Positions 5,240 through 22,942 of a stretch of 64,000 nucleotides of DNA are shown piece after piece; position 1 is the first letter of the stretch, and the number at the start of each line of letters is the position of its first letter. The notes under the pieces were generated by a model that saw only the letters and a program-made list of their open reading frames with translations, did not search any database and was not told the origin of the DNA. Made by a program: the position numbers and the translations under genes. Source of the DNA: a bacterium (GTDB lineage Bacteria; Bdellovibrionota; Bacteriovoracia; Bacteriovoracales; Bacteriovoracaceae); the NCBI GenBank assembly GCA_030425045.1, contig JAUHVL010000003.1, positions 1-64,000 of the forward strand, read 5' to 3'.

Positions 5240-5557
5240 ATGGAAACAAATGAAGTTCGTCAAAAACTAGAAAGAATGAAAATGGTACTCATTGATCGTA
5301 TTCAAAGAATAGAAAGCGATAAAAAAAGAGATGAGCCAATTCCTCAAGATTTTGCAGAGCAGGCTGTTGCTGTTGAAAATGATGAAGTCCTTGATGCTCT
5401 TGATGAAGTGGAGCTAAAAGAGCTAAAGCAAATTAATCTCGCGTTAGCAGCTCTAGATAATGGTACTTATGGAACATGTACTGAGTGTGACAATGGTATC
5501 GGCGATAAGAGACTAAGCGCTCTTCCTTTTGCTACCAAATGTATTAACTGTGTATAA
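5240..5557 (+). CDS. DksA/TraR-family zinc-finger protein
   Basis: A 105-residue protein with an N-terminal coiled coil (residues 3-75) and a C-terminal four-cysteine zinc finger (C80, C83, C101, C104; CTEC and CINC separated by 17 residues). It is shorter than DksA (about 150 residues) and closer in size to the TraR/YbiI-like group. Such proteins bind the RNA polymerase secondary channel. The acidic loop between the helices, here EPIPQDFAEQ, is similar to the family tip. It converges on the radical SAM gene at 5544 with a 14-base overlap. Confidence 0.85.
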   Translation: METNEVRQKLERMKMVLIDRIQRIESDKKRDEPIPQDFAEQAVAVENDEVLDALDEVELKELKQINLALAALDNGTYGTCTECDNGIGDKRLSALPFATKCINCV

Positions 5558-6641
5558 ACCTTTCAATTTCATGAATCTCGTTGAAGATCTCGATATTAAA
5601 ATTTAAATTATAATATTCGATTTCTTCAGCGATCTTTTTCATTTCTCGACAATGACTTTCTACTAAGTTTGTTTCTTTTAGATCAGAGATATGTTTTTTA
5701 CAGCCGTTACAGATTTGGAACATCGGGCAGGTGTAGCATTCATTTTTTAATGAATGAAGTTCGGCAGAATCTGCGAGAGGAGTAAAAAAATGATCACCAT
5801 AAACTTCTTGTTCATAATTAATTTCAAACTGTCGATCGTCTCCAAAGGCACCACAAGTATAATATTTTCCGTCGGGTTGAAGAACACGAATACCGCTATC
5901 GCAATCTCGATTTAGAGGACATACGGTTTGATCAATTCGCTCGAGTCTATTCACCATTTGGCGAGTATTCCATTCATAATCAGCCAGACCTTCTTTTATA
6001 ATGTCGAGGTAAACTCGATAAATTCTAGAGAGGGGCAGAGGGCTACCACAACTTCCACTTTTATTGGCATAGTTAAGTTTGCAATCAACACCAAGTTTTT
6101 TAGCTAGACGGACATTCTCTATGGAAGTTTCTAAATTATCATTTTCAATAACGGAGATAAAAGAAGGCCGATAGCCAATTTTCTCAAGCATAAGATCTGA
6201 TATTTTGATAAAGTCTTCTTCTGTAAAAATACGATCTTTGGTTATTCTTCTAGCCTCACCATATTGAAAAGATGTTGTGACATTCATCTTAGGATGAGAA
6301 AAAAGTTCGGTCCAAGGTTTGTCTTTCGCGTTGGTTTCCCATTCCCGCCAGAATTTCCAGAGATTAGTCGTTAATGAGATATTTGCATCATATTGATACT
6401 CTTCTAGGTGATGAATGATATCCCAATAAAACTTGGGAGGCATCATCTGAGGATCACCACCATTCACGATGATTGTTTGGGTGTTTGGAAACTTTTTCAA
6501 AAAGTCGAAAATATATTTGAGTTCAAGTTGATCACTTTTATTTTCGACAAGATAAGATGAGCTACAAAAAGTACAAGCAAAATTACATGACTCTGTTGGC
6601 TTAATGATAAGGTCTATTGGTCTATGATCAACTTTCATCAT
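5544..6641 (-). CDS. Radical SAM/SPASM protein
   Basis: A 365-residue enzyme with the radical SAM cluster motif C19-x3-C23-x2-C26 (SCNFACTFC), a GGDPQ motif near residue 61 and a cysteine-rich C-terminal SPASM-type region (CPLNRDCDSG, YTCGAFG, CYTCPMFQICNGCKK) expected to hold auxiliary Fe-S clusters. SPASM proteins commonly modify peptide or protein side chains. It is the last gene of a three-gene minus-strand unit; its start overlaps the stop of the preceding radical SAM by four bases. The substrate is unknown and no small precursor gene lies beside it. Confidence 0.9.
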   Translation of the reverse strand: MMKVDHRPIDLIIKPTESCNFACTFCSSSYLVENKSDQLELKYIFDFLKKFPNTQTIIVNGGDPQMMPPKFYWDIIHHLEEYQYDANISLTTNLWKFWREWETNAKDKPWTELFSHPKMNVTTSFQYGEARRITKDRIFTEEDFIKISDLMLEKIGYRPSFISVIENDNLETSIENVRLAKKLGVDCKLNYANKSGSCGSPLPLSRIYRVYLDIIKEGLADYEWNTRQMVNRLERIDQTVCPLNRDCDSGIRVLQPDGKYYTCGAFGDDRQFEINYEQEVYGDHFFTPLADSAELHSLKNECYTCPMFQICNGCKKHISDLKETNLVESHCREMKKIAEEIEYYNLNFNIEIFNEIHEIERFIHS

Positions 6642-7726
6642 GGACTTCCCTGTTGATAAGAAAGAAGTTTATACGTTTCAATATCTTTATTTCGAATCAT
6701 CTCCTGCCAGATTTTCTTGGGAGCAGGACAGTAAGACTGATTTTCATCCCACGCAAGTTGGTAACAATCACTATTACAATAGCTAAAAGCATCACATTGA
6801 TAGCAATCTTTTGGACGATCAAACTTCTCACAAGAAATTCGTTGCTCTCGAAGAGGAGAGTTAAAGTTGCTTTCGATTGGCCAATCGATATGTCCCCATG
6901 GCTTTTCTGTTGCCGTGTTGGGGCAGCCCGAAATTGAGCCTGAGGCATTAATGGTCAACAGGCTCTCTTCGCAGTTTCGACAACGATTTCCTATATGGTG
7001 TGTTTTTATAAATCCTTCAACAAGTTCAGCTAAAAACATGTTTCCGATCGTTTCATATGTTTTGTATTCAAGAGTTTGCTTAAACATTTGATACAGCCAC
7101 TCATCTTGCTCTCGATTACTCGGAATAATATTACTATTTTCTTTTGCATGACCATCAGATGTAATTCTTTCAAAAAGAATATGCTTAAAGCCAAGTTCTT
7201 TAGCATAGGTAATAACTTCAATAGGCTCTTTTTCTTGAATCAATTTTTTGGTGAGACAAACAATCATCGTCATATAATGATTATCTTCTTTGGTTAAAAT
7301 TTGAACATTCTTTTCCCAGAGCTCTTTTTGTTTATTGTGTGTGAAGCGAATATCGTAATCCCATGATGTGCCAAAACCATCGCGATAAAGCGCATGTTTT
7401 AGAAATCTTCTTTTTTCATCAGTTAGATTGAAGACGAGATTAGTTTGCATACCAAAAGTTGTGTTTTCAAAAATACCATTAAGACCTTCGTAGGCAGCAT
7501 AGAGATCTTTTAGTGGTGCCAGAAGAGGCTCACCGCCATGAAAAATATAGCGGATGTCTTTTATATGAGGAGCATAAGACTTTAGATTCTTAAAAAAAGT
7601 TATAGATTTATCTGGATTGAAAAATATCTTTTTTCCCTTACTCCCACTTGTAAAGCAATGATCACAATTGAGATTACATGTATCTGTTGTTTTTAAATAG
7701 ACATTGATACTAGATGCGAGCTTCAT
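6638..7726 (-). CDS. Radical SAM/SPASM protein, paralogue of the enzyme at 18056-19135
   Basis: The TDTCNLNCDHC motif near the N-terminus binds the catalytic 4Fe-4S cluster, followed by FHGGEPLLAP. The C-terminal third has SPASM cysteines (CRNCEESLL, GCPNTATE, CYQCDAFSYCNSDCYQL). The protein is strikingly like the 18056-19135 product across its length, for example LKTTDTC, FHGGEP and the cysteine pattern at the end. I chose the ATG at 7726 (362 aa) because it aligns with the paralogue's N-terminus; the frame is open to 7765. It overlaps both neighbours, so the three genes are co-translated. Confidence 0.9.
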   Translation of the reverse strand: MKLASSINVYLKTTDTCNLNCDHCFTSGSKGKKIFFNPDKSITFFKNLKSYAPHIKDIRYIFHGGEPLLAPLKDLYAAYEGLNGIFENTTFGMQTNLVFNLTDEKRRFLKHALYRDGFGTSWDYDIRFTHNKQKELWEKNVQILTKEDNHYMTMIVCLTKKLIQEKEPIEVITYAKELGFKHILFERITSDGHAKENSNIIPSNREQDEWLYQMFKQTLEYKTYETIGNMFLAELVEGFIKTHHIGNRCRNCEESLLTINASGSISGCPNTATEKPWGHIDWPIESNFNSPLREQRISCEKFDRPKDCYQCDAFSYCNSDCYQLAWDENQSYCPAPKKIWQEMIRNKDIETYKLLSYQQGSP

Positions 7727-8680: not shown

Positions 8681-9214
8681 GTGCGCAGCGTTTTTTTAAG
8701 TCTTGTCTTGTTCTTTGGTTTACTTGGCACTGTCTATGCTCAGGATGATCAAAATAATTTGAATGCCTCTCAAGTGAATAAGTTAGACTGGGATCAGTAT
8801 AAAGGTAAGGCGATTCTTTCGATGGTTTATAAAGATAAGTTTTTACGCGTTAAGATGCATACATCGTTTGAAAATGTTTTTGATTTTGACGAACTGCCTA
8901 GTAGTGGCAGTGCGTTGGGTACATGGAACTCCTATAAATCCAAATGGGAAAACTCTACCTCAATGTTGAGAACAACGCAGAGTAATTGTGACTTTTCTAA
9001 AGGTAAAAAAACAGTTGAGTCTCCTGCTCAGTCTGGATGGTTTCAGCTTTTGTCGATTACTAAGTGTGAGTCATCACCTAAAGGAATGAGAGTCTATATA
9101 GATTTCTTTGATGGTAATTCAAAAATTCGAGAGTTAGATGTTACGATCGAAATTGAGGGCTCACCAAAAAGGTTTGTTAATCTTGAAAATGGAAAGGGTG
9201 AAGTTGTACTTTAG
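8681..9214 (+). CDS. Secreted protein of unknown function
   Basis: Starts with GTG, supported by AGGAG five bases upstream. The 177-residue product has a clear signal peptide (RSVFLSLVLFFGLLGTVYA, cut before QDDQ). The mature part contains two cysteines (QSNCDF and ITKCES) that could form a disulfide, and a strand-rich C-terminus. I do not recognise a domain. The gene is divergent from the radical SAM trio and convergent with the Tat-signal protein at 9211, overlapping its end by four bases. Confidence 0.65.
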   Translation: MRSVFLSLVLFFGLLGTVYAQDDQNNLNASQVNKLDWDQYKGKAILSMVYKDKFLRVKMHTSFENVFDFDELPSSGSALGTWNSYKSKWENSTSMLRTTQSNCDFSKGKKTVESPAQSGWFQLLSITKCESSPKGMRVYIDFFDGNSKIRELDVTIEIEGSPKRFVNLENGKGEVVL

Positions 9215-9594
9215 GAAATTGCCCAGCCAGTATCACTACCAAAGAAAGTAATTTTAATATTTGCTAAGCTATCAAGTTCTAAGAAGTCATCGTATCCCTC
9301 AATACGATATTCCTCAGAGGATAAAATTGCAGGATTTTCAAGAGAGTCTTTATCAATAACAAGATAAAAGCAGTCACCTTCTTTTGGATTGAGAGGGGGA
9401 GAAATTTTATCATGCCCTTTTACAACGTAAACTTCATCTTTTTTAAGTTGATAAAAGGTATCGGATTTATGTTTATCATTTAGATTAGGTGTTGCACCTG
9501 ATACGTCTTCTTTTTTTAAAAATTGATTTAGGAAAGAGAATGGTGCCGTTGCCGCGAGCACTCCCAATATAAATTTTCTTCTTTGTAGTTTCAT
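9211..9594 (-). CDS. Small exported protein with twin-arginine signal
   Basis: A 127-residue protein starting MKLQRRKFILGVLAATAPF, a twin-arginine motif followed by a hydrophobic core, so export through Tat is likely. The mature part has one cysteine (GDCFYLV) and ends FFGSDTGWAIS; no cofactor motif is evident. It is divergent from the prepilin gene at 9628, with 33 bases between. Tat substrates are normally folded before export, which would suit a protein modified or assembled in the cytoplasm, but this is inference. Confidence 0.6.
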   Translation of the reverse strand: MKLQRRKFILGVLAATAPFSFLNQFLKKEDVSGATPNLNDKHKSDTFYQLKKDEVYVVKGHDKISPPLNPKEGDCFYLVIDKDSLENPAILSSEEYRIEGYDDFLELDSLANIKITFFGSDTGWAIS

Positions 9595-9627: not shown

Positions 9628-10920
9628 ATGAAAAAAATTTCTTTTTTTAGAAAACAAGGTTTTTCTATTGTTGAGGTTATGGTTGCGGCTGGAATCATGG
9701 GCGTGGTAACCCTTGGTTTAAATAAGTTAACTGAAACTCAATTTAAAACTGTAAAAACAGTTGAGTCTTCAAGTGAGGTGACAAGTATCCTCACTCAAAT
9801 GAAAACAATCTTAGCAACCTCAGAATCTTGTGAAGCTACCTTTGTCACTAACCCCGCAAATAGTGGGAATCCCTACCGAATTAATCAAGGGGCTCTTTCA
9901 GATCCTATGGCCATCAGACAGCTTTCACCATCATCAGGTTCGATTGTTGATAAATTCATAGCAAACACGAATAAAAGTTTAGCCAGAAAATACGGTAATG
10001 GTGGAGTGAAAATTCTTTCATACTCATTATCAACATCAGATTCAGCAGTTGGAATTACTGCAGGGGACACTGTTGGTACAACACACCTTCTCGTTCGCTT
10101 TTACAGGGGAAAGGGAACACTTGGAAATGAAGAAATCGTTAAAAAGATTATTTTAAATGTGGAGAGAGTTTCTCCAACAAATAATAGAATCGCTACTTGT
10201 AGTACTTCAAGTGCTGGTGTTGGAGCTGCTCTAGCTTCTTGTTCTTCCTTAAGTGGAAACTATATTCAGGGTACTCCGGATGAATGTCACCTTCCCGATT
10301 ATCGAGACCTTACGGTCAATACGAATAATCTGCCAAACCGAGGTGTATCTGAATTATATATGAGGCAATTATTAATGATGGAGACATCGTATACAAGTCT
10401 GACTATTGGTGATGCCTCAACAGATACTGCTATTTTTGAATCGGCCGTTGAAATTAACGGCCCCACTTCTTTTAATGGGAACTTAACAATAACAGGTACA
10501 ACTACCTTTAGTGGCGGGATTGTTATTTCTGGTGATTTAGAATTAAGTTCGGATAAGAGACTTAAGAAAAATATTCGCCTCCAAGAAAGATTGATGGATA
10601 AGATTCGTTTGCTCGATCCTGTCGTATTTGATTGGAAAAAAGATAATCGAAAAAGTTACGGTTTTTTGGCCCAAGATGTAGCTAAACTTTTTCCAACGAT
10701 GGTCTCACGTCAAGAAGATACAGGTTTGTTGGCCATCAGGTATATCGAACTTATCTCGGTTGCTTTTCAAGGTGTTAAGGAGCTCGATAAAGAAATTGAA
10801 GAGCTGAAGAAAGAAGCTGTAGACTTAAAACAGGAAAACAATCATTTAAGAGAAGACCTAAGTAAAATGAAAGATATATTATGCAGCCATTTTAAGAATA
10901 AAGAGAGCTGTAATTTATAG
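9628..10920 (+). CDS. Prepilin-type protein with C-terminal S74 intramolecular chaperone domain
   Basis: Residues 1-40 are a prepilin leader and helix: G11 before FSIVEVMVAAGIMG with the conserved E16, so a PilD-type peptidase should cut and methylate it. Residues 40-250 are an unrecognised globular region with cysteines. Residues about 255-305 are a Gly/Thr/Ser-rich beta segment as in phage tail spikes. From about 308 comes SDKRLKKNIR and YGFLAQDVAKLFP, the peptidase S74 chaperone of tail fibres, followed by a coiled coil (385-425). The combination suggests a trimeric, pilus-mounted adhesin or fibre. The next gene follows 8 bases later and likely encodes a partner. Confidence 0.8.
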   Translation: MKKISFFRKQGFSIVEVMVAAGIMGVVTLGLNKLTETQFKTVKTVESSSEVTSILTQMKTILATSESCEATFVTNPANSGNPYRINQGALSDPMAIRQLSPSSGSIVDKFIANTNKSLARKYGNGGVKILSYSLSTSDSAVGITAGDTVGTTHLLVRFYRGKGTLGNEEIVKKIILNVERVSPTNNRIATCSTSSAGVGAALASCSSLSGNYIQGTPDECHLPDYRDLTVNTNNLPNRGVSELYMRQLLMMETSYTSLTIGDASTDTAIFESAVEINGPTSFNGNLTITGTTTFSGGIVISGDLELSSDKRLKKNIRLQERLMDKIRLLDPVVFDWKKDNRKSYGFLAQDVAKLFPTMVSRQEDTGLLAIRYIELISVAFQGVKELDKEIEELKKEAVDLKQENNHLREDLSKMKDILCSHFKNKESCNL

Positions 10921-10928
10921 GAGTATAG

Positions 10929-11528
10929 ATGGGTACGCTATCAAGTAGATTGACAAAAATTACTTTTGGAACAACTGGTTCAAGACCTTCACTTTCTAAG
11001 GTGACAATCAATAATACGACTGGTTCCGTTACAGGTCCTGTCCCAAGTAATGCTGCATCCGCAGAAGGAATTATGGTTGATGGCGACCTTATCGCAGATA
11101 GAGTTTGGAATGCAGTATGGAATGATCTGGCAGATTATCAACCTCTTAATGATGAGTTAGTTTTTGGAAAGTGTTATTACGATACCCTTGAGGGAGCTAG
11201 GTTATGTACGGAAAGATGTCAGAAGTCAGTCATTGGGATTGCCTCGGACTCTTTTGGCTTTGCTGTTGGAGTAAATGATTTTAGACAAGTACCTATTGCT
11301 ATCGCTGGTTGGGTACTAGCTTATGTTGATAAAGAATACGAGCCGGGAACACCTCTTACTAATAATGAGCAGGGAATACTGACAGAAATGACAAAAGAAG
11401 AAAAGAGTGAGTTCCCTGAAAGGATAGTAGGTATCTATAAAAGAAAAGAGTATCAAGAGAAGTGGGGGCCAGCTGAAGAGAGCATGGTCGAAGTCGATGG
11501 ACGTCACTGGGTTAAAGTTAAGTCTTAA
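10929..11528 (+). CDS. Tail-fibre-like/Peptidase_G2-like protein
   Basis: A 199-residue protein with a low-complexity Ser/Thr/Gly-rich N-terminus and a C-terminal domain of the type AIAGWVLAYVDKEYEPG, FPERIVGIYKR and VDGRHWVKV. This pattern resembles the end domain of Gram-positive phage tail or appendage proteins (Peptidase_G2-like). It has no signal peptide. TAGGAG lies just upstream of the ATG, and the gene follows the prepilin/S74 gene directly. I infer that the two form parts of one extracellular fibre; the similarity is from memory and should be tested by a profile search. Confidence 0.55.
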   Translation: MGTLSSRLTKITFGTTGSRPSLSKVTINNTTGSVTGPVPSNAASAEGIMVDGDLIADRVWNAVWNDLADYQPLNDELVFGKCYYDTLEGARLCTERCQKSVIGIASDSFGFAVGVNDFRQVPIAIAGWVLAYVDKEYEPGTPLTNNEQGILTEMTKEEKSEFPERIVGIYKRKEYQEKWGPAEESMVEVDGRHWVKVKS

Positions 11529-11958
11529 TCAAAAACTCTTTTTTAAAATAATCAACAGTTTTCAAAACACTTTTAGATTTGCTTTGTTCAAAATCAGTTA
11601 AGTTATTTTCTTTTAAATATGTAATAACGTTTTCATATAGTGAGCGCGTGTCTTCATTGAAAGGCTTAAAAAATTTATCGTTCCCATGGAGAAGGTCTGG
11701 GTCGGATAAGGCTTCTAAAAAAGAAACATCAAAATACTTTTCAAGTAAGAATGAATAAATAAGTGCGACCGCATAGGACTTTGCGGGAAAAGATAAAAGA
11801 TCATTATTTAATTCAGTAAAGTAAGAGTTGATTTTAGAAACTAGCTCTTGTTCGTTAAGTTCTTCTACAATGTAATTTAAGTCATGAATATCATCGTCAG
11901 GGATATTTGTTTTATGAAAAATTAATTGGTTTTTTTTATGTTCTTTCACAGCCCCCAA
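11518..11958 (-). CDS. Unknown protein downstream of a 2OG oxygenase
   Basis: A 146-residue, mostly helical acidic protein with no recognised domain, signal or cysteine motif. It overlaps the upstream oxygenase gene by 13 bases. The frame opens at a TTG at 11958, and a GTG at 11949 is also possible; neither has a convincing ribosome-binding site, so translational coupling is likely. Convergent overlap (11 bases) with the tail-fibre-like gene. It may be an accessory of the oxygenase, by position only. Confidence 0.55.
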   Translation of the reverse strand: MGAVKEHKKNQLIFHKTNIPDDDIHDLNYIVEELNEQELVSKINSYFTELNNDLLSFPAKSYAVALIYSFLLEKYFDVSFLEALSDPDLLHGNDKFFKPFNEDTRSLYENVITYLKENNLTDFEQSKSKSVLKTVDYFKKEFLIKT

Positions 11959-12488
11959 CCTTTGAGGTTGTATTTAAACTCTATGACTCTTCTTGTTTTA
12001 GGAGTGTTGTGAACTCGATGTTGAAATTGATGGAGCTGATTAAGCCAAACCAAACGATATTTTCTTGGGAAGATTGTTTTCGTTTCAAGTGGCCCCCTAA
12101 CTTCAAGCTGCCCGCCATCTTCACGATTTAAATCATTTAAATATAATAAAAAGTTACAATTGTGATGAGTCTTTGTCTTAAAGTCGTTGTGCCAGTTTTG
12201 GCTTGCTTGATCGCTACCGTCCCAAAAAAAATAGCCATTACTTTTAATATCCCCAAAAAAATGAGCTAAGATCGATTGCTCAATTTGTTGGTTAATATTA
12301 GCGAGGCAATTTTGTATGCTTTTAGAATAATGATCAAGGTTTAGATGATCTGCATTACGTGCATTGGGACAAGGGAAGTTAAGGTTTTCTAGATGCTCTA
12401 AGTCTTCAAAATATATATTGTCTAAATAACCCACACCAAAGATTGAGAAATTACTAAATAAGTCTTTTAATTCGGCTTCTGTAGGCAT
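11946..12488 (-). CDS. 2OG-Fe(II) oxygenase family protein
   Basis: A 180-residue double-stranded beta-helix protein with the iron facial triad WHNDF (HxD) and a later RVHN histidine, then TPKTRRVIEF, whose arginine would bind 2-oxoglutarate. GGQLEVRG sits on the expected strand. It resembles prolyl-4-hydroxylase-like dioxygenases and, closer, the protein at 15261-15773, which shares WDGxD, the HxD box and the final RR-V segment. Such enzymes hydroxylate amino acid side chains, in free or peptide form. Its presence among radical SAM genes suggests a second modification chemistry. Confidence 0.75.
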   Translation of the reverse strand: MPTEAELKDLFSNFSIFGVGYLDNIYFEDLEHLENLNFPCPNARNADHLNLDHYSKSIQNCLANINQQIEQSILAHFFGDIKSNGYFFWDGSDQASQNWHNDFKTKTHHNCNFLLYLNDLNREDGGQLEVRGPLETKTIFPRKYRLVWLNQLHQFQHRVHNTPKTRRVIEFKYNLKGWGL

Positions 12489-12557: not shown

Positions 12558-13574
12558 ATGAATGATTACAGCTTAATAGATAATAAAATCGCTAGCTATG
12601 CAGAAGTCGTCGTGTGCTTGTTTGACCATTGTAATCTCCAATGTGCTTTTTGTCCTCAAGATCATGACTCTCAAGTCGGAACAAGCCAGCAGGAAATATT
12701 AAGTAAGGTGCCAACAATATCTCACTGGATAAATAAAAACGAAAGGTCGAACTTTTTTAAAGTTCATATTATGGGTGGTGAGTTATTTCAGGACTACTGG
12801 ATTGAGAAAGGTTATCTCAATATTTATCGAGAGTTTATAGAACTGATTAGAGCTTCAACAGACCCAAAAAAAGATATCTGTTTTAACTTTGTTAGTAATC
12901 TTGTCTTTACTCGTTCTGAAGAGGTGTTGAGGTTTTTTGAATTGCCTTACACCATGCTGTCTATTTCTTATGACCCAAAAGGAAGATTCTCAGAAGGAAC
13001 AAAAAGTATCTTTTTAGAAAATGTTTCAAAGTTTGAAAACAAAATAGAGATGGTTTCAGTTGTTTTGACCGAGCAAAATATTAAAGCGATTCAGATGGGG
13101 GATTCGGTATTTGATCAATTATACAAAAAATACATTATTGACTTTGATCATTTATTACCATCGACCGAAAATGCTGAAAGGTTACTTCCACTAGAAAGTC
13201 AAAAACAAGAATTCCTTAAATATCTCATTGTTCAATATCCAAATTGTTTGAACGTCGCTCCCTTTGTTGAAGAAAAACCTCAACATAAAATGACATGCAC
13301 GAGAGGCAACTCATTAACAATTCTAAAGGATGGTACCATTCCTGAAGGATGCTCTGGTGCTTTATTTTTGAATGATTCCACTACTGAAGAGTTGAGCTCT
13401 CCCGAGATAGTGAGTGACTTTGTTTTTGAAAATGAATGTTTAACTTGTGAGTTCTATAAAAACTGTCCATTTCCGTGTTTTGTTAGTGAGCAATACAAAT
13501 CTAGTAAAAAAAATATAAAAGGCTGTTTATATAAAGATGTTTTTAAAATGGTGAGGGGGGCAAAGTCATGTTGA
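12558..13574 (+). CDS. Radical SAM protein with C-terminal cysteine cluster
   Basis: The radical SAM motif is C25-x3-C29-x2-C32 (HCNLQCAFC), with MGGELF in place of the GGE motif. The C-terminus carries a SPASM-like cluster (CTRGNSLTI, EGCSGA, CLTCEFYKNCPFPC). The ATG at 12558 gives 338 residues; a TTG at 12528 is an in-frame alternative. Its end overlaps the start of the cobalamin-type radical SAM by seven bases. It is probably a peptide- or protein-modifying enzyme, with unknown target. Confidence 0.85.
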   Translation: MNDYSLIDNKIASYAEVVVCLFDHCNLQCAFCPQDHDSQVGTSQQEILSKVPTISHWINKNERSNFFKVHIMGGELFQDYWIEKGYLNIYREFIELIRASTDPKKDICFNFVSNLVFTRSEEVLRFFELPYTMLSISYDPKGRFSEGTKSIFLENVSKFENKIEMVSVVLTEQNIKAIQMGDSVFDQLYKKYIIDFDHLLPSTENAERLLPLESQKQEFLKYLIVQYPNCLNVAPFVEEKPQHKMTCTRGNSLTILKDGTIPEGCSGALFLNDSTTEELSSPEIVSDFVFENECLTCEFYKNCPFPCFVSEQYKSSKKNIKGCLYKDVFKMVRGAKSC

Positions 13575-15280
13575 AAATAGCTTTTGTTAACCCTCCCCAC
13601 GCTGATTGGTCATTGGCCAACAATATGACTTATCTACAGATTCAAAGTCATTATCAAAGATTTGGCTCATACAAGGAACAGGTTGAGTGGATTCCCGCAC
13701 CCTATAGATGGAATTGTTACACCAGTTTTACAGAGGTTTATGCTGAAATCTGTGAAGCGGATATTTTTCTCATGAGCTCATATGTTTGGAATGCTGAAAT
13801 TTTAGATGAGTTCTCAGAATATATTAAAATGAGAGATCCTGAGAAAGTTCTTGTCATCGGTGGACCACATATTGGTACAAATGATGCTGATTTATTACAG
13901 AAAAGAAAAAGAATTTATGATTTTATTTGTCAACCAACCAAACCGGGAGAGGCTTTTGTAGAAGACCTTATTAACTCTTGGTTCGATAATCAGGGGGCAA
14001 TCGCTAGAGAAGATATTTCATGGGAGCTTAGCTCTTTTAAATCTAAAAAGTTTGTACTCGATCAAGATTATTCGGTTTATGAAGACCATTTTGATCATCT
14101 TAGCGAAGTACTGGCTTATGCACGAAAGCATAATCTCGAACCTTTTGTTGTGCTAGAAACAACAAGAGGGTGCCCTTATCGCTGTGTTTATTGTGAATGG
14201 GGTGGAGGAATAAATACAAGGATTCAAAAGAAAAATCTAGAGATCGTTAAAAGAGATATTCTTTCCTTGAAAAAAGCAGGCTTTAGGTCGGCTTATTTGA
14301 CTGATGCAAATTTCGGCGTTTTTAAAGAGAGAGATTTTGAAATCTATCAATTTGCTTGGGATAACCAGTTCTATTTGACAGATATTTCCACTGTGAAAAC
14401 ACCAAATCTTGAGTTGAGAAAAGAGCTAGTCGACTTTTGCTCTGAAGTTGTCGGCGAGGATCACGATACAGTTTATAAAGAAGAAAGAGGGACTGATATG
14501 TGGGGAAGGATGGAATACGTTTCTATAGTCCCCACTGTTTCAATACAAAGTATATCTGATACTGCTATGAAAATTGCAGAGAGAGTTGACTTAAAGTCTG
14601 CGGACAAAATCGCCTTAAGTGAATACCTCAACCAGGTCTGTGAGAAAAGGGGTTACCCAAAGCCGGCGCTAGAATTAATTCTAGCAATGCCTGGATCTAC
14701 GTTAGATGATTTTTATAATGAGATGGATGTTATTTGGAATTTTAAAGCCTGGTCTAGCTTTAGGCATGATTATATGTTTTTACCGGACTCAACATTAAAT
14801 TCAGAAACTTACAAAGAAAAGTATGGAATAGAAACAGTTAAAGTTTATTCCGATATTGTAGATGAAGATGGAATAGATAACTTCAATAGCCTCTATAGAA
14901 ATAAAGAAACACATTACGAAACGATTAGAAGTTGTTTTTCATTTTCTGAAGTTGAAATGCGTGAAATGTGGTTTATGAATAGCGCTTCAAACTATTTATT
15001 GAAAGATATTTACCCTGAGTTTACTAACTATTATAGGCCTCCAGAGTTTGCGAGAAAATGCTTTCGAGAGATAAGAAAGTTAACAGAGTACTCTGTAATT
15101 GATGAAGATATCAAAGATATTTTTAACCCTCTTACGCCTGCTCGTTCTATTCGAAGATTGGGAGGTACATTTAGGGTTGAGTTTATCGAGAGATTTCTTA
15201 AAAGGAATATTCTTCTTATAAAGGATGGTTTACTCAAAGATTGCTTGGTAGGAGATTATTGTGAAAACAGCTTTTTATGA
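13568..15280 (+). CDS. B12-binding-domain radical SAM protein
   Basis: Residues 1-160 look like a cobalamin-binding Rossmann domain (MLKIAFVNPP start, VLVIGGPHIG near residue 98), without an obvious DxHxxG lower-ligand motif, as is common in RiPP-modifying members. The radical SAM motif is C202-x3-C206-x2-C209 (GCPYRCVYC). The large C-terminal part (350-570) is not recognised. Such enzymes methylate unactivated carbons or rearrange side chains. It overlaps the radical SAM upstream and the oxygenase downstream (20 bases), so three enzymes are made from one message. Confidence 0.85.
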   Translation: MLKIAFVNPPHADWSLANNMTYLQIQSHYQRFGSYKEQVEWIPAPYRWNCYTSFTEVYAEICEADIFLMSSYVWNAEILDEFSEYIKMRDPEKVLVIGGPHIGTNDADLLQKRKRIYDFICQPTKPGEAFVEDLINSWFDNQGAIAREDISWELSSFKSKKFVLDQDYSVYEDHFDHLSEVLAYARKHNLEPFVVLETTRGCPYRCVYCEWGGGINTRIQKKNLEIVKRDILSLKKAGFRSAYLTDANFGVFKERDFEIYQFAWDNQFYLTDISTVKTPNLELRKELVDFCSEVVGEDHDTVYKEERGTDMWGRMEYVSIVPTVSIQSISDTAMKIAERVDLKSADKIALSEYLNQVCEKRGYPKPALELILAMPGSTLDDFYNEMDVIWNFKAWSSFRHDYMFLPDSTLNSETYKEKYGIETVKVYSDIVDEDGIDNFNSLYRNKETHYETIRSCFSFSEVEMREMWFMNSASNYLLKDIYPEFTNYYRPPEFARKCFREIRKLTEYSVIDEDIKDIFNPLTPARSIRRLGGTFRVEFIERFLKRNILLIKDGLLKDCLVGDYCENSFL

Positions 15281-15773
15281 TGATTTTTTTGAGAAAGGTT
15301 TTAAGAAGTTTAGCGAGCCTGATGCTTTGTCTCTTATCCGTATAGAGGAGTTTAAGCTCTTAAACGTGGAAGAGAGGACAAGAGACAATGGTATTAATGA
15401 TCTCTCTTCAACTTTAAATCAAAGACTGAGTGCTTTCTCTGTTTACTTGAAAAATAAATACATAGATCCCGTTTGGGAAAAATCAAAGTTTAATAAATAT
15501 CTCGTCTGGGACGGTGTTGATAGAGATAATCAGGGGTGGCACACAGATCTTTTTGAGGGTTATGACCTTTTTTTTCTCTATTACTTTGATGATACTTCTC
15601 CTCAAACTGGAGGAAGTATTAACTTTAAATGGAATCGTAATGAAACTCAGCAATTTTATCCAGAGGCAGGAGACTTGTTTCTGGTAAGTAATACAAGAGG
15701 CTTTTGGCACCGAGCTGAGTCGACTACGGTAACGAGGAGGGTTGCAAGTTTTGACTTCACTACAGCAGAGTAA
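15261..15773 (+). CDS. 2OG-Fe(II) oxygenase family protein (second copy)
   Basis: Starts with GTG after GGAG at seven bases. The 170-residue product has the HxD iron motif in GWHTDLF, the distal histidine in FWHRAES and an arginine in VTRRVASF that would hold 2-oxoglutarate. GGSINFKWN and AGDLFLVSN lie on the predicted core strands. It is homologous to the protein at 11946-12488. The start lies inside the end of the cobalamin radical SAM gene, so hydroxylation is probably coupled to that pathway. The substrate is unknown. Confidence 0.8.
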   Translation: MKTAFYDDFFEKGFKKFSEPDALSLIRIEEFKLLNVEERTRDNGINDLSSTLNQRLSAFSVYLKNKYIDPVWEKSKFNKYLVWDGVDRDNQGWHTDLFEGYDLFFLYYFDDTSPQTGGSINFKWNRNETQQFYPEAGDLFLVSNTRGFWHRAESTTVTRRVASFDFTTAE

Positions 15774-16074
15774 CGAAATTGAAAAATTAATGAATAAGAA
15801 AAGAGAAATTGGAGTTGAAAGAGATCTTTGTGCTGAACTCTATAATGTATGGATCTCAAAACTTCATGACCATGAGGACGATCCAGAAAAGTATGAACTT
15901 TATCTCAATTTAATAGCCAATATGGAACCATATGGAAATATGCTTAAAGAGCAAATTCGAGAATTAAATCGCCAAATATGTGAAATAGAGGGTGTGGAGT
16001 CGATTGCTGAAACTAAGTATGAAATGGAGTGTGTGTATAAGTATGGCTTCGATAGGCCCGAGCATTCTGAATAA
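15751..16074 (+). CDS. Small helical protein of unknown function
   Basis: A protein of about 107 residues predicted to be nearly all helix, probably a coiled coil (residues 5-85), rich in Glu and Lys, with cysteines in the last third (RQICEIEG and EMECVYK). The start is unsure: TTG at 15751 has a good GAGGAGG ten bases upstream, while the first ATG is at 15790 with a weak site. It overlaps the end of the oxygenase gene, implying coupling. It could be an adaptor or leader-binding component; nothing in the sequence proves this. Confidence 0.55.
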   Translation: MTSLQQSNEIEKLMNKKREIGVERDLCAELYNVWISKLHDHEDDPEKYELYLNLIANMEPYGNMLKEQIRELNRQICEIEGVESIAETKYEMECVYKYGFDRPEHSE

Positions 16075-17008
16075 TACTAAAGACAAAGCTAATCAAGCAT
16101 GAGTTCCCACTAGCGATCCCATTAATATATTCAAGTACTGGTAACTTACTATTTAAAACTAAGTCGATCATTGACGTTTCTTTTTCAAAGAGGGCAAGCG
16201 TCATCATAGAAAACGAATCATCAGCTGGAGGAAGAGTTTTGTCACTCTTTTCAAACTGTTTCACTAAGTTGTTTATCTTTAAAAAATACTCTGCTTGATA
16301 GTTCATCAAGACGTGTTTCTTTGACCTAGAAAATAGTTCATCGTCAGTTATCCAGTTGAGGTCATGGTTGTGAAATAAGATATGTTTTAAATTGTCTTCA
16401 ATATGGATTTCTTTATTAAAATGAAATTGATAAAAGTCAGATAAGAAAATGAAAATTTCATCCTTTAGAGTGAAAATTTTATCAAACCACTTCTCCCAAA
16501 CATAATTGATGAGTGTTCCTTCTAAAATATCGCTTTGAGGCTCTTTTAATAACAAAATCTCAAGAGGTACTTTTGATAAATTTAATTGAATTTCATAGTT
16601 GTTATTTATATTTATCTCCGTGAGGACTTTTGAAACATACTCTTCGTCATAGGAGATACCTCTCAGTTGACACTCTTTTATAAGAGGATCGATGAATTGA
16701 TTTAGGTTATTTACTTTAAAGAAATCACTCCAGCAGGAAAAAAATAGAAAGGGGAGGTAATACTTATCGGTATAGATAACCGTTTTCCCTCCTGATGTCT
16801 TAGATGCTTCGTCCCAAAAGAGGTGAAGATTACCTGAATACTGATTAAGCAAGAGACTTTGAAAGTTTTCAATTTCAAGAGATTGAAATGTAGAATTTAC
16901 ATCTGCATCCGGGTGTCTCTGCGTTTTTTCAACAGCAAAGAATGTTTTCCATTGGGGATTATAGTTTTCTATAGAGTCTAAGAATAAATTCTCGTAAAGA
17001 TGTATCAT
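16013..17008 (-). CDS. Unknown protein, paralogue of the 17011-17982 product
   Basis: A 331-residue soluble protein without recognised domains. It shares with its neighbour a short block of type FWDEAS or FWLDAK, then a strand, then FFSCWSDFFK or LFQFWKSIFK, which I take as evidence of duplication. Its ribosome-binding site AAGG lies in the last codons of the upstream gene and the start is five bases further on, so the pair is coupled. Its 3' end overlaps the convergent 107-aa gene by 62 bases. Function unknown. Confidence 0.6.
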   Translation of the reverse strand: MIHLYENLFLDSIENYNPQWKTFFAVEKTQRHPDADVNSTFQSLEIENFQSLLLNQYSGNLHLFWDEASKTSGGKTVIYTDKYYLPFLFFSCWSDFFKVNNLNQFIDPLIKECQLRGISYDEEYVSKVLTEININNNYEIQLNLSKVPLEILLLKEPQSDILEGTLINYVWEKWFDKIFTLKDEIFIFLSDFYQFHFNKEIHIEDNLKHILFHNHDLNWITDDELFSRSKKHVLMNYQAEYFLKINNLVKQFEKSDKTLPPADDSFSMMTLALFEKETSMIDLVLNSKLPVLEYINGIASGNSCLISFVFSIIQNARAYRSHTYTHTPFHT

Positions 17009-17010
17009 AG

Positions 17011-17982
17011 CTACCTTAGAATATAATGCTCTTTTAACTGATGGTTATTTTTCTTCAGATAATCTATTGCAAAGTAGGAACCACCAAGGCTTAAGATTTT
17101 TTTTGCTAGAGATATATGAAAATTTTTTTCCAATTCATCACTTAGAGATGTTTTTGAAATAACGTCAGCGTATTTTTCAATTTCTGCATGGTCCCTCATA
17201 TGTGTGGTCTTGTTTGAGATTATTTTCTCAGAGAGATTGAAATTATAGTTTAGGAAGAATTTCTTCACATAGCTTGCATTGCCATATTTAATTTTATTGT
17301 CAAAAATCCAAGAGACCTGGTTCTGCTCCTCTCTTGAGAGCTGATAATAATTTTGAAGAAGAGTCTCTCGAAGCTCTTGTAGTTTTCTAAACCAAACTTC
17401 TTCTTGCCTTTTTTTTATTTGATTTTGTAATTCTAACTTGTATTGAAAACTATTATTAACTAACCATGCTCCATAGAGGTATTCAATATTTAGTTCTTCA
17501 TAATCTAGAGGTGTTAAGTCGATTATATTGACTTCCTCAATAAGGGCTTTGACTTGTTTTTCATCGAGATTTGGAAATGGTTGCTCGAACTTCTCAAGTT
17601 GACCCATCTTGTCGAGATACTCAATTTGGATTTTAATCTCCCACCATTTCTGCATAAGTTTATAAAGCGTAAGAAAAAAAGCAGTATCGTGTGACTTAAA
17701 GATACTTTTCCAAAATTGAAAAAGTAATTTTGACAGTGTCTTGTTGTCGCAACAAAAAACAATACGCTCACCTTCTTTTGCATCGAGCCAGAATTTTGTT
17801 TCAGATCCTTGGTGGTTATCACAAATAAAAGCTTTCAAGGTGGTTGTCTCACCAACGTTTTTATCGATGAGTTTTGAAATGGGGTGAGGCATAATTTCTT
17901 GAGTTAAATAGGTTGCTTTTGGATACCTCAAAAAGCAGGAAATATAATCAATATAATAACGTCCAATAAGGTGATACATCAA
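17011..17982 (-). CDS. Unknown protein, first of a paralogous pair
   Basis: A 323-residue, largely helical soluble protein. The block ETKFWLDAKEGERIVFCC followed by LLFQFWKSIFK resembles the product of the next gene. No catalytic or metal motif is evident. The gene is divergent from the radical SAM gene at 18056, with about 70 bases between that must hold both promoters. Position suggests a role in the modification pathway, for instance as a scaffold or substrate carrier, but this is not shown by sequence. Confidence 0.6.
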   Translation of the reverse strand: MMYHLIGRYYIDYISCFLRYPKATYLTQEIMPHPISKLIDKNVGETTTLKAFICDNHQGSETKFWLDAKEGERIVFCCDNKTLSKLLFQFWKSIFKSHDTAFFLTLYKLMQKWWEIKIQIEYLDKMGQLEKFEQPFPNLDEKQVKALIEEVNIIDLTPLDYEELNIEYLYGAWLVNNSFQYKLELQNQIKKRQEEVWFRKLQELRETLLQNYYQLSREEQNQVSWIFDNKIKYGNASYVKKFFLNYNFNLSEKIISNKTTHMRDHAEIEKYADVISKTSLSDELEKNFHISLAKKILSLGGSYFAIDYLKKNNHQLKEHYILR

Positions 17983-18055
17983 AAAAGACCTTAATTATTT
18001 GGTGAGCTAGAGTTATGATTATTCCAGTAAATAAACTATTTTGAAACGGATTTTA

Positions 18056-19135
18056 ATGCTTACTGACGACCTGATCATTTATCTTAAGACCACAGATACC
18101 TGTCAGTTGAATTGTGCTCACTGCTATACTTACGGAAGTAATGCTGCCAAAGGTTTTTTTGATCCACAAAAAACAATTAACTTTTTAAAAAATATGAAAG
18201 AGGCAAGACCTCAGGTTTCTTCCGGAAGTATTACTTTTCATGGAGGAGAACCTTTTCTTTGCCCGACGAATCTAATGTTTGATGTTTGGAATGAAACAAA
18301 AGATTTATGGCCAAGTGTTTGGTGGTCGATTCAATCAAACCTTACCCTTGAATTAACTCAAGGTCGAAAAGACGTTCTTGATAGAATCTGCCAAAAAACT
18401 TGGGGAACTTCGTGGGATTATGGTATTCGCTGGGCCGATAAGAGATCTGAAGATCTTTGGCGAGATAATATCAAATCAATGGCCAGTGACGGTCATAATA
18501 TCACCAGCATTGTTTCTGTTTCTAAAAAGTTAATTGAACAGGTTGAGCCTATTGAAGTCATTGAGCAAATGGCAGAACTTGGAATCAAACATATAAATTT
18601 TGAAAGAATAACAAATAATGGAAATGCTCAGAGTTCACTTAATAATAATTTAATACCCGGTAATCGCGAGTTGGATCGTTGGTTTGCAAAAATGTGGGAT
18701 CAAAGTGTCGAGCATAAAACCTATCAGTATATTGATAACCTCTTTTTTGATTCAATTTTAACGTCGAAAGTCTACCAAACGTTTAGTGGTTGCCGATGTC
18801 GTAAATGTGAGCAAAAAGTCTTTACGTTAAATGCTAACGGTACCATTGGCGGTTGCCCTAATAGTGCTGTTGAAAACTCTTTTGCTAATATTGAAGACCC
18901 GATTGAGAAAATTCTCTTTAGTGAAGGAAGAATGTGTAATATTCAAACAGAATCAATCAGGCCCGATCCTTGTTATACTTGCGAAGTTTATGATTTGTGT
19001 AATGGTGATTGTCATCAACTCGGTTGGGATGGGGATATCTGTGCGGCACCAAAGTCAATGATGAAGTCAGTGATGGCTTGTAATGATATGAAGTTATTTA
19101 AATCGTTTTTGAACGGATTTCAAGGACAGGAGTAA
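18056..19135 (+). CDS. Radical SAM/SPASM maturase next to the CXXX-repeat precursor
   Basis: The catalytic cluster motif is C16-x3-C20-x2-C23 (TCQLNCAHC), followed by FHGGEPFLCP. The C-terminal SPASM region has CRCRKCEQK, GGCPNSAVEN and CYTCEVYDLCNGDCHQL, enough cysteines for two auxiliary Fe-S clusters. A TTG at 18041 is an alternative start; the ATG at 18056 aligns with the N-terminus of its paralogue at 6638-7726. The precursor gene follows after four bases, the layout seen in RiPP operons whose SPASM maturase forms thioether or other cross-links. This is the best candidate for the core-modifying enzyme. Confidence 0.9.
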   Translation: MLTDDLIIYLKTTDTCQLNCAHCYTYGSNAAKGFFDPQKTINFLKNMKEARPQVSSGSITFHGGEPFLCPTNLMFDVWNETKDLWPSVWWSIQSNLTLELTQGRKDVLDRICQKTWGTSWDYGIRWADKRSEDLWRDNIKSMASDGHNITSIVSVSKKLIEQVEPIEVIEQMAELGIKHINFERITNNGNAQSSLNNNLIPGNRELDRWFAKMWDQSVEHKTYQYIDNLFFDSILTSKVYQTFSGCRCRKCEQKVFTLNANGTIGGCPNSAVENSFANIEDPIEKILFSEGRMCNIQTESIRPDPCYTCEVYDLCNGDCHQLGWDGDICAAPKSMMKSVMACNDMKLFKSFLNGFQGQE

Positions 19136-19139
19136 AAAA

Positions 19140-19757
19140 ATGCCAGTAGGTGGACAAGTAACAAAAGATGACAAAATTAACGACTTTATTACTAACGTAA
19201 TAAACCCTGCAATTGCTAGGATTCAAAAAGATAAAGCTGACTTAGGTGTGGCGGCAAGTGCACCGACTCCTGTTGTAAACAAAACGGACCTTAGTGTTAA
19301 TCCTGGCACTTTTGGCTTTAATGGTACAAATCCAAGTGCTGTTAATACAAAAGGTGGAGAACTTACGGCAGCGGCCCTCGCGGATCTTTTTATCAGCTAC
19401 GCTCATAAATTAACTTCCATTAGACGCTCAACTCTTATTCATCACCTTATCCAAACGAACTCTAGTGGGCATTTAAGTTATACCACAACAAATGTTTGGA
19501 GTGCTCAAGTGACAGCATTGTCAGCAGAATATGCTCTTCCTCCAGCAACATTTAAAACAAGAGTTGAGGCAACTTCAAATCCTCTGACCGCTCTTCAGCC
19601 TGGGCAACCAGCATCACTTACAGCGATTGATGCACTTATCACAAAACTAAACTCCGTTCTCGCTACAAGATCAACAGAGGGAATTGGGACAATGACAGTC
19701 TACTCATGCCACAGTAGTTGTCACTCTTCTTGTCATGGTTCAAGAGGAAGGAGATAG
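19140..19757 (+). CDS. Candidate RiPP precursor with C-terminal CXXX repeats
   Basis: A 205-residue protein whose last 16 residues are a strikingly different tail: C190 H S S, C194 H S S, C198 H G S, then RGRR. These are the only cysteines in the protein. The preceding 189 residues are cysteine-free, Ala/Thr/Asn-rich and look like a long leader or carrier (segments GELTAAALADLFISYAHK and ALITKLNSVLATR). A threefold C-x-x-x repeat beside a SPASM enzyme matches the general scheme of CXXX-repeat radical SAM maturation systems known by protein-family models. The RGRR end could be trimmed. Modification is inferred, not seen. Confidence 0.7.
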   Translation: MPVGGQVTKDDKINDFITNVINPAIARIQKDKADLGVAASAPTPVVNKTDLSVNPGTFGFNGTNPSAVNTKGGELTAAALADLFISYAHKLTSIRRSTLIHHLIQTNSSGHLSYTTTNVWSAQVTALSAEYALPPATFKTRVEATSNPLTALQPGQPASLTAIDALITKLNSVLATRSTEGIGTMTVYSCHSSCHSSCHGSRGRR

Positions 19758-19759
19758 AA

Positions 19760-20482
19760 ATGGAAATTAGAGAAGTTACGGCTCCGCTTGAGATCGAGCA
19801 GATTAAAGAATTTATTGATAACAAGGAACTTGTTTATCTCGTAGATTATAAAAACTCAGAGTTACAAGGGATAAAACTTTTAACTTATTTATCTAACCTC
19901 GAACTTCCGGCTGAAATTCTTTTTGACGATTGTAGCTTTGATCAAAAAGAAGAGTTTTTTAAAGCTTATATGAACACCAGAAGTGTTTATCGAACAGAGT
20001 CTGTTCTCTTTAATATCGCTTCTTTGCTTCTACACTATCGTGATATTGATTGTGAAAAAATTTATCTTAATCAAATTTTCTCAGAAGAAGAGAAAAGTCG
20101 ATTTATTGAAAATAATAGAGAGACAATAGAGCAATGGGAAAAGTTCATAGAGAGTAGTAGTCTTTTTGCTCAAACATGTATTGATAGTTTGGTTGATGTT
20201 GAAAATATTAAAAAAGCTTTTGGTGAAATTAATGACCAAGAAGCGGTGGGCGCCAATGTTGTCAATATGTTTGGCTTACCTGCTTTTATGGATTTATTTT
20301 TTACAGCAGGCTATAAACATGAAATGAAGTATTATACGCCTCAGTTTGAAGAATATATGTTTAGAGGGAAAAATCTTTATAGCTTTTATGTTTGTGAAGA
20401 AAATACAGTTTTTAAAATGTTTCTTTTACATGTTAATGGCGAATTAGATCATAATCTTGATGCCAAAGTCATAACAGAATAA
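19760..20482 (+). CDS. Unknown protein translated from the precursor operon
   Basis: A 240-residue soluble acidic protein with no domain I recognise. The start is the ATG at 19760, preceded by GGAAGGAG, which lies inside the final codons of the precursor. It has four cysteines, not in clusters. It could be a leader-recognition, chaperone, peptidase or export partner for the precursor. An ABC-F ATPase gene follows after three bases, so the operon may extend further. Confidence 0.6.
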   Translation: MEIREVTAPLEIEQIKEFIDNKELVYLVDYKNSELQGIKLLTYLSNLELPAEILFDDCSFDQKEEFFKAYMNTRSVYRTESVLFNIASLLLHYRDIDCEKIYLNQIFSEEEKSRFIENNRETIEQWEKFIESSSLFAQTCIDSLVDVENIKKAFGEINDQEAVGANVVNMFGLPAFMDLFFTAGYKHEMKYYTPQFEEYMFRGKNLYSFYVCEENTVFKMFLLHVNGELDHNLDAKVITE

Positions 20483-22241: not shown

Positions 22242-22700
22242 ATGAAACTTCTCGAGGTACTTAAAGTCTTAGATTCTAGAAAAATCCCCTATGCTCTTGT
22301 TGGTGGTCACGCCGTTGCACTTCATGGAGCAGTGAGAGGGACTGTTGATATAGACTTCATCATTAACTGGAGTTTGAAAAATTTAGAAAAGTTTGAAGAG
22401 GCTATGACGGATTTAGGTTTAAGTCCGAGGCATCCTATTTCTGCGAATGATGTCTATAACTTTAAAGATGAATATATTAAAAACAAGAATCTTATCGCTT
22501 GGAATTTTATCCACTCAGATAATCCTTTGTTTCAAATAGATCTCGTCATAACAACTGACTTGAAAAATAAATCAGTTAAAAAAATTAAAGTAGGTAGTAG
22601 AGATGTTCGTGTCCTATCAAAGAAAGACTTGATAGAAATGAAGAAAAAATCTGGTCGTGAACAAGACTTATCAGATGTTGAGGCATTAGAAAGTTTATGA
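22242..22700 (+). CDS. Nucleotidyltransferase-fold protein (AbiEii/DUF6036-like)
   Basis: A 152-residue protein with YALVGGHAVALHGAVRGTVD then DIDF, the G-G/S and D-x-D pattern of the minimal nucleotidyltransferase fold found in AbiEii-type toxins and related proteins. A third acidic residue is in FQIDLVI. The C-terminal helix (SKKDLIEMKKKSGREQD) fits the same group. It overlaps a small ribbon-helix-helix gene by four bases, as in toxin-antitoxin pairs. Function as a toxin is inferred. Confidence 0.75.
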   Translation: MKLLEVLKVLDSRKIPYALVGGHAVALHGAVRGTVDIDFIINWSLKNLEKFEEAMTDLGLSPRHPISANDVYNFKDEYIKNKNLIAWNFIHSDNPLFQIDLVITTDLKNKSVKKIKVGSRDVRVLSKKDLIEMKKKSGREQDLSDVEALESL

Positions 22701-22942
22701 AAAGGGCGATACAATATTTTTCAAAAGAACAGCTAGAAAACAGTGCAAAGCTTACTCCTAAACAGATAATAGAGTTTCTTGATGATTTTAGAATGCTGCA
22801 TACTCAAAACAGTCCTGTAAAGTCGAAGTTAATAAGTATCAAAGTTCCTGAGGATTTACTAAGAGCCTTTAAAAGAAAGTCAGAATTCGAAGATGTTCCT
22901 TATCAAACAATGATCAAAAAGCTTATGAAGCAATGGCTATAA
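22697..22942 (+). CDS. Small ribbon-helix-helix-like protein, possible antitoxin
   Basis: An 81-residue protein whose C-terminal half (ISIKVPEDLLRAFKRKSEFE and PYQTMIKKLMKQWL) has the strand-helix-helix pattern of CopG/BrnA-like DNA-binding antitoxins. The N-terminal part is charged. It overlaps the nucleotidyltransferase gene upstream. The order, nucleotidyltransferase first, is opposite to that of most antitoxin-first pairs. Confidence 0.65.
   Translation: MKRAIQYFSKEQLENSAKLTPKQIIEFLDDFRMLHTQNSPVKSKLISIKVPEDLLRAFKRKSEFEDVPYQTMIKKLMKQWL

Follow-up and report, generated by a model that had tools for sequence, protein, structure and literature searches.

A phage-type radical SAM cassette and its candidate substrate, a protein with a conserved (CHxS)3-RGRR tail, in a bacterium of the Bacteriovoracaceae

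C-terminal repeats encoded beside radical SAM (rSAM) enzymes have been described in several settings. In CXXX-repeat maturation (TIGR04115) a SPASM rSAM adjoins a protein with a Cys at each fourth C-terminal residue, and in the His-Xaa-Ser system HxsABCD (TIGR03976-03979) C-terminal H-x-S repeats occur together with several rSAMs. Proteusins (e.g., polytheonamide) have a long N-terminal part and bring together rSAM, B12-rSAM and 2OG-Fe oxygenase enzymes. Sets of several rSAM genes have also been reported in phages: in Campylobacter phages CP220 and CPt10, where they were termed "highly unusual" (PMC2853527), in Aeromonas phage 332-Vera, within a structural gene cluster (PMC12390700), and in FLC6 (PMC8066314), S13 (PMC11898562), pPa_SNUABM_DT01 (PMC8541153) and a marine T4-like genome (PMC5332604). 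The roles offered have been guesses, DNA repair for pPa_SNUABM_DT01 (PMC8541153) and likewise host metabolism in papers since 2010; no substrate of such clusters was named in the available parts of the literature found, a search to which preprints and most subscription journals were external.

We analyzed a 64,000-nucleotide stretch (the window) of contig JAUHVL010000003.1, from a Bacteriovoracaceae genome (GCA_030425045.1). An ORF of 205 codons with an ATG start had the C-terminal end SCHSSCHSSCHGSRGRR, the final residues before the stop codon being TVYSCHSSCHSSCHGSRGRR. Its only cysteines, residues 190, 194 and 198, each precede a His and lie at every fourth position in the last 16 residues, exactly as an earlier sequence-only reading had described them. 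That reading also placed a SPASM rSAM gene four bases upstream, and the adjoining ORF (18041/18056-19135) indeed stops there; its product, rSAM-B, has CxxxCxxC and the SPASM Cys pattern of a maturase (TIGR04085, 27.7 bits; cut-off, 27). The repeat protein, called here the CHxS protein, had no Pfam or NCBIfam match, and PHROGs matched its last 19 residues only (family 35144, E 5e-6). Both genes lie in an island at about 5.5-20.5 kb that holds six rSAM genes, two 2OG-Fe(II) oxygenase genes, several ORFans, a prepilin gene (9628) and the 10929 gene (Table 1). The flanks of the island are housekeeping genes, and its G+C content is 35.4% versus 36.3% for the rest of the window. Just past the island, at 22242-22942, a gene for a DUF6036 nucleotidyltransferase-like protein is followed by one for an antitoxin-like protein of the CopG/BrnA type; the two may be a toxin-antitoxin pair.

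Table 1 Features of the island, with positions in the window.
Feature	Position	Strand	Remarks
rSAM-D, 365 aa, SPASM-like	5544..6641	-	PHROG 1802 (E 1e-46)
rSAM-B2, second SPASM rSAM	6638..7717	-	41% identical to rSAM-B
rSAM-C, 306 aa	7710..8630	-	phage family PHROG 1802
127-aa protein, twin-Arg-like N-terminus	9211..9594	-	
Prepilin (N_methyl N-terminus, type IV) with Peptidase_S74 tail-fibre chaperone	9628..10920	+	
199-aa tail-fibre-like protein	10929..11528	+	co-occurs with the pilin
146-aa ORFan	11518..11958	-	common to viral clusters, 49/204 loci
2OG-Fe(II) oxygenase	11946..12488	-	
rSAM-E, 348 aa	12528..13574	+	PHROG 1802
B12-binding-domain rSAM, KedN5-like (C-methyltransferase-like)	13568..15280	+	in viral loci too
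2OG-Fe(II) oxygenase	15261..15773	+	
95-aa cassette protein	15787..16074	+	homologues in 6 viral loci
331-aa ORFan adjoining 17011	16013..17008	-	position matches the G035 cluster
323-aa ORFan	17011..17982	-	~350-370-aa cassette family, phages too (L249, L181, L197)
rSAM-B, SPASM radical SAM, near-obligate CHxS partner	18056..19135	+	TTG start at 18041 also possible
CHxS-tail protein, predicted substrate	19140..19757	+	205 aa; predicted folded body 9-190 and flexible tail CHSSCHSSCHGSRGRR
(CHxS)3-RGRR tail	19707..19754	+	codons 190-205
240-aa partner	19760..20482	+	PHROG 20767 (E 3e-54)

The tail proved to be widespread and nearly unchanging. The pattern (CHx[S/N])3-R-x-R-R directly before the stop codon was present in at least 167 distinct proteins, encoded on phage contigs nearly throughout, and a scan of viral contigs by the motif alone returned at least 120 stretches. 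Among the proteins listed, C-H-x-x-C-H-x-x-C-H-x-x-R-x-R-R was invariant at the exact C-terminus; the fourth residue of the repeats was mostly Ser or Asn, with Ser in 152, 129 and 148 of the 167, and position -3 was Gly in 148. Of 11,912 ORFs in the loci, 236 contained CHxxCHxxCH, in every case with the repeat run at the C-terminus. Residue shuffles of CHxS proteins never yielded the tail (0/20,000), which together with this conservation argues that it did not arise by chance. As judged from the alignments, the C-terminus of these proteins is under extreme constraint, its repeat unit is better written CHx[S/N] than CXXX, and the signature includes R-G-R-R; the sequence-only reading, which spoke of CXXX repeats, had overlooked both the Ser/Asn preference and the R-G-R-R. 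It had also anticipated homologues with a conserved C-terminal CHxx and a varying number of repeats. The homologues exist, but the number is nearly fixed at three and forms with two, four or five repeats are rare. One freshwater clade has CHSNCHGSCHGS followed by I or L in place of RGRR. A five-repeat form, CHCSCHSSCHSSCHSSCHSSRARR, is encoded on a 356-kb viral contig (L084:11102-11659). In an Oligoflexia MAG (L019:11081-11395) the tail has degenerated to CNSNFICHSNCYTPPPKSRSRR and the rSAM cluster is kept, a natural variant that could reveal which tail residues matter. A second form of the system consists of a tandem pair of ~127-aa CHxS proteins (L025:4484-5244, L026:4388-5205, L157:2523-3286 and others); in these loci the enzyme is farther off, rSAM-B lying several kb away or beyond the fetched stretch.

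A scan of viral contigs with the CHxS protein as query gave no matches because its body is too divergent, and the enzyme alignment was used instead. This returned 340 viral relatives, of which 80 were kept, and most of the kept loci encoded a protein ending in CHxxCHxxCHxxRxRR directly after the enzyme; in genomes, about 15 close loci were found, mainly in Bdellovibrionota MAGs. Loci that keep the enzyme and lack the repeat were what the sequence-only reading had set as evidence against itself. Among the 58 viral loci that were picked by the enzyme alone, free of motif bias, and had at least 1.6 kb of room downstream, the CHxS protein was encoded within 1.6 kb downstream in 57 and at 2.2 kb in the remaining one. 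In the rSAM-B tree the labels virus and bacterium change at least six times on well-supported branches, a record in sequence of repeated gene exchange between viruses and bacteria, and the enzyme of the window pairs with that of a relative (G035) within a mixed clade. The bacterial island has the look of a relative of the viral cassette that settled long ago.

The viral setting of the pair, which the sequence-only reading had overlooked along with the five further rSAMs of the window, is a cassette in the neighborhood of tail genes. Six isolated jumbo phages carry the enzyme (Atu_ph07, Phosso, SURPRISE13, FLC6, FLC8 and pPa_SNUABM_DT01), and in the four records examined (Atu_ph07, Phosso, SURPRISE13 and DT01) a gene ending in the motif is directly 3' of it. 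FLC6, S13 and DT01, reported earlier for their rSAM sets, carry the very enzyme cassette of the CHxS system. In phages the cassette comprises a cupin, rSAM-B, the CHxS protein, the ORFan found at 19760 in the window, more rSAMs and 2OG-Fe oxygenases, and it adjoins tail-fibre and baseplate genes; in pPa_SNUABM_DT01 central spike and tail genes are upstream. When the neighbors of 157 viral CHxS proteins were clustered, rSAMs were present in 117 loci and the 19760 family, directly downstream, in 116. A tail-fibre-like protein was encoded in 78 loci, and a cupin and a ~370-aa ORFan in 77 each; 2OG-Fe oxygenases accounted for 43 and 40 loci, a virion-type protein with DUF4815 for 39, a virion protein of PHROG 473 for 37 and a B12 rSAM for 18. 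No protease or exporter was recognized among the conserved neighbors scanned. Homologues of the 19760 protein occurred in 156 of 204 viral loci, usually immediately 3' of the CHxS gene; its fold was confidently predicted and had no clear match in the PDB (best VIA-align Z 4.6 over 55 residues). The enzymes, this partner and the CHxS C-terminus correspond to PHROG 1802 (rSAM), 20767 and 35144, respectively, the last two with no function recorded in PHROGs. Other products of the island with homologues in viral loci are those of 5544, 6638, 7710, 11518, 11946, 12528, 13568, 15261 and 15787. Homologues of 10929 were found in bacterial loci only, and the 9628 pilin matched viral proteins solely via S74-bearing tail fibres. 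CP220 was considered as a further case and dropped, no CHxS tail being found in the 150 of 177 kb checked; its region 70690-77721 (FN667788) has five rSAM genes and an amidinotransferase gene without a CHxS tail. Going by this case, as far as it was checked, the CHxS system does not explain all phage multi-rSAM clusters.

In Atu_ph07 the gene order is tail fibre (PHROG 19602, E 8e-21), cupin, rSAM-B, CHxS protein and 19760 family. By CDS count the CHxS gene is CDS 170, a numbering that agrees with the published one for gp132 (tail sheath) and gp181/182 (baseplate) (PMC6102473). Particle proteins of this phage identified by ESI-MS/MS are reported to cluster in CDS 31-76, 170-215 and 284-329 (PMC6102473). 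The CHxS gene therefore opens the virion-protein block CDS 170-215, which the major capsid protein closes, and its position at the published block boundary suggests that gp170 (AUZ94952.1) is in the virion.

The sequence-only reading took everything before the repeats for an unusually long leader, a view that the structure predictions did not bear out. AlphaFold2, run with 76 homologues, confidently modelled residues 9-190 as an alpha/beta body (mean pLDDT 85, pTM 0.80); the tail, starting at about residue 191, was predicted to be flexible (pLDDT near 57). The bodies of the motif proteins are very divergent and fall into at least 10 sequence groups; no sequence link was seen between the bodies of the window protein and of Atu_ph07 gp170, and the predicted fold is shared by both and by other members of the family. 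No Foldseek match to the PDB had an E below 0.3, and VIA-align 2 reached no more than Z 2.2. In a viral structure library, significant matches were confined to family members (Atu_ph07 gp170, E 3e-5) and to three long proteins of Myoviridae sp. ctijX18 (BFVD A0A8S5USJ7, A0A8S5USJ8 and A0A8S5USV2; 504-660 aa; Foldseek E 4e-4 to 1e-3). As modelled, the protein combines a fast-changing folded body and an invariant tail; in this it differs from a RiPP leader and resembles a structural protein that displays a tag.

Among 59 relatives searched, the only clear homologue of the CHxS protein was that of G035, 49% identical overall with the last 16 residues identical, and nearly the whole cluster was present there. 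When 129 genomes of the class were searched for the pattern, one case was added, G006, with the ending CHSSHSSHSSHSSRGRR. In its CHSSHSSHSSHSS form the H and S are kept with one Cys only, so that H-x-S and R-G-R-R persist despite the loss of two cysteines. The 9628 pilin-S74 gene was found alongside the island in four other bacterial loci, and several Bdellovibrionota genera have it together with 10929 and the island. Three relatives without the CHxS system (G010, G012 and G029) have a 10929 homologue beside a different multi-rSAM cluster that encodes another Cys-rich-tailed protein, with endings CICNTDCACNAVCTCHNDCGCHY, CICNSDCNCNAVCNCHNNCGCHY and CVCNSDCGCNQVCGCHNDCGCNYG. A twin-Arg protein resembling the 9211 product is also encoded beside the 10929 homologues there, and G029 carries the pilin-S74 gene as well. 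Judging by these clusters, a fibre module appears to be accompanied by either of two tailored tail proteins. Tails of a second, unrelated Cys-rich family (CxCNxDCxCNxVCxCHNDCGC) were observed at L308:5806-6315(-), L309:11365-11928(+) and L310:9386-9838(-), within multi-rSAM clusters adjoining 10929 homologues; some of their rSAMs match PHROG 27238 (E 7e-96) and 21308 (E 2e-48), and these clusters are possibly another tail-tailoring cassette.

We propose, with a probability of about 0.6, that the CHxS protein is the substrate of a phage-type multi-enzyme rSAM cassette and that the modified protein is built into an attachment structure. The folded body of ~180 residues would present the flexible (CHxS)3-RGRR tail, and rSAM-B would recognize the CHx[S/N] units and make a covalent change at each, with the H-x-S part as the recognition element, to judge from the G006 form. 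Further changes may come from the remaining rSAMs, the B12 rSAM among them, and from the cupin and 2OG-Fe oxygenases; going by the enzyme classes, the likely products would be Cys- or His-centred cross-links, possibly with epimerized, methylated or hydroxylated residues. In phages the full-length protein, body retained, would then become part of the virion's tail fibre or tail tip. In this bacterium it may instead join the prepilin-S74 and 10929 proteins in a surface fibre, both being likely partners in view of the position of 10929 beside the other rSAM/Cys-rich-tail clusters in G010, G012 and G029; a role of such attachment in predation would be a guess. Several observations count against our proposal: the genome of the window has no contractile-sheath gene and no DUF4815 gene, which means that bacterium and virus must put the protein to different uses, the bacterial CHxS proteins have no evident signal peptide for reaching the surface, the profile similarity of 10929 to a phage tail-fibre C-terminus is weak (hhalign P 0.006), and PHROGs labels some of the neighboring virion proteins "head and packaging", not tail.

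The cassette could alternatively make a classical RiPP: cleavage of a ~190-residue leader would set free a small modified CHxS peptide, to act as an antimicrobial, toxin or signal. In its short C-terminal repeat core, attended by a SPASM enzyme, a B12 rSAM and 2OG oxygenases, the cassette resembles RiPP clusters such as those of proteusins; however, the body is predicted to be folded and sits among tail genes, the conserved neighbors offer no recognizable protease or exporter, a secreted peptide would be of little benefit to lytic phages and the Atu_ph07 gene opens a virion-protein block, so we regard a released peptide as unlikely. Metal ions are known at phage spike tips, and a Cys-His array could chelate Zn, Fe or Cu at the tip of a fibre or spike with no covalent change, the rSAMs acting elsewhere (on a sugar, a lipid or another protein). 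The near-obligate coupling of the tail to one SPASM enzyme and the G006 form, whose single Cys is easier to reconcile with recognition of H-x-S than with a fixed metal site, make such a metal-binding tail decidedly improbable.

That the island is a functionless remnant of an integrated phage might be thought from the mainly viral distribution of the cassette and the grouping of rSAM-B with viral sequences. We rejected a prophage, as phage structural and integration genes are absent from the flanks and sheath and DUF4815 genes from the genome; the housekeeping flanks, the window-like G+C content, the intact state of all frames, the identity of the G035 tail at 49% overall identity and the co-inheritance of pilin-S74 and 10929 in several genera leave a remnant very little probability. 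Membership in the CXXX-repeat or His-Xaa-Ser rSAM-RiPP families was likewise rejected and appears to us hardly credible. In its favor are the CXXX spacing, the target pattern of CXXX systems being present as three conserved C-terminal CHxS repeats, and the H-x-S repeats, the G006 CHSSHSSHSSHSS form reaching E 0.008 against HxsA. Scores were nonetheless far under the cut-offs: the window enzyme had 28.9 bits versus 350 for TIGR04115, the HxsC score was 34.1 versus 267.9, and in G006 the HxsB score was 18.0 versus 370; the HxsA precursor model gave 16.1 versus 121.65 bits for the G006 form and no match for the window protein, no HxsD homologue was seen, and no NCBIfam precursor model matched any CHxS precursor convincingly. 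The CXXX-maturation layout put forward in the sequence-only reading thus survives as a near-obligate repeat/SPASM pair (57/58 loci) and fails as a family assignment, which the cut-offs largely refute; shared chemistry is possible.

Returning to the proposed modified attachment protein, the clusters probably act on the tip of such a protein, viral or, here, bacterial. We give even odds to a broader view, in which tailed phages of many lineages, jumbo phages included, rebuild the tip of their tail fibres by rSAM/2OG-Fe clusters, Bdellovibrionota reuse the cassette for their own surface fibres, and at least one other, unrelated Cys-rich-tail/rSAM cassette occupies the same slot in relatives. If this is true, a component of virions would for the first time be known to undergo modification by radical SAM enzymes; amino-acid chemistry made by radicals at virion attachment tips would add a new kind to the modifications of viral proteins, and the enzymes would supply new peptide chemistry for a short invariant C-terminal tag. 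The CHxS protein is a concrete candidate substrate for phage rSAM clusters, and the question is open to mass spectrometry on cultured phages (Atu_ph07, Phosso, FLC6, SURPRISE13 and pPa_SNUABM_DT01).

Compared with the described systems, the CHxS cassette shares with CXXX-repeat maturation the SPASM rSAM next to a protein with regularly spaced C-terminal cysteines, but differs from it in the CHx[S/N] unit, the R-x-R-R end, the approximately fixed number of three repeats, the folded body, the five further rSAMs and the phage tail context. It resembles HxsABCD in its C-terminal H-x-S repeats and several rSAMs, whereas here a Cys precedes each His, the HxsB and HxsC cut-offs are far off and HxsD was not seen. 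A long N-terminal part and the combination of rSAM, B12-rSAM and 2OG-Fe oxygenase recall the proteusins; the nitrile-hydratase-like leader of proteusins had no Pfam or NCBIfam match in the window protein, and in contrast to the long and variable proteusin core the CHxS tail is short, invariant and phage-borne.
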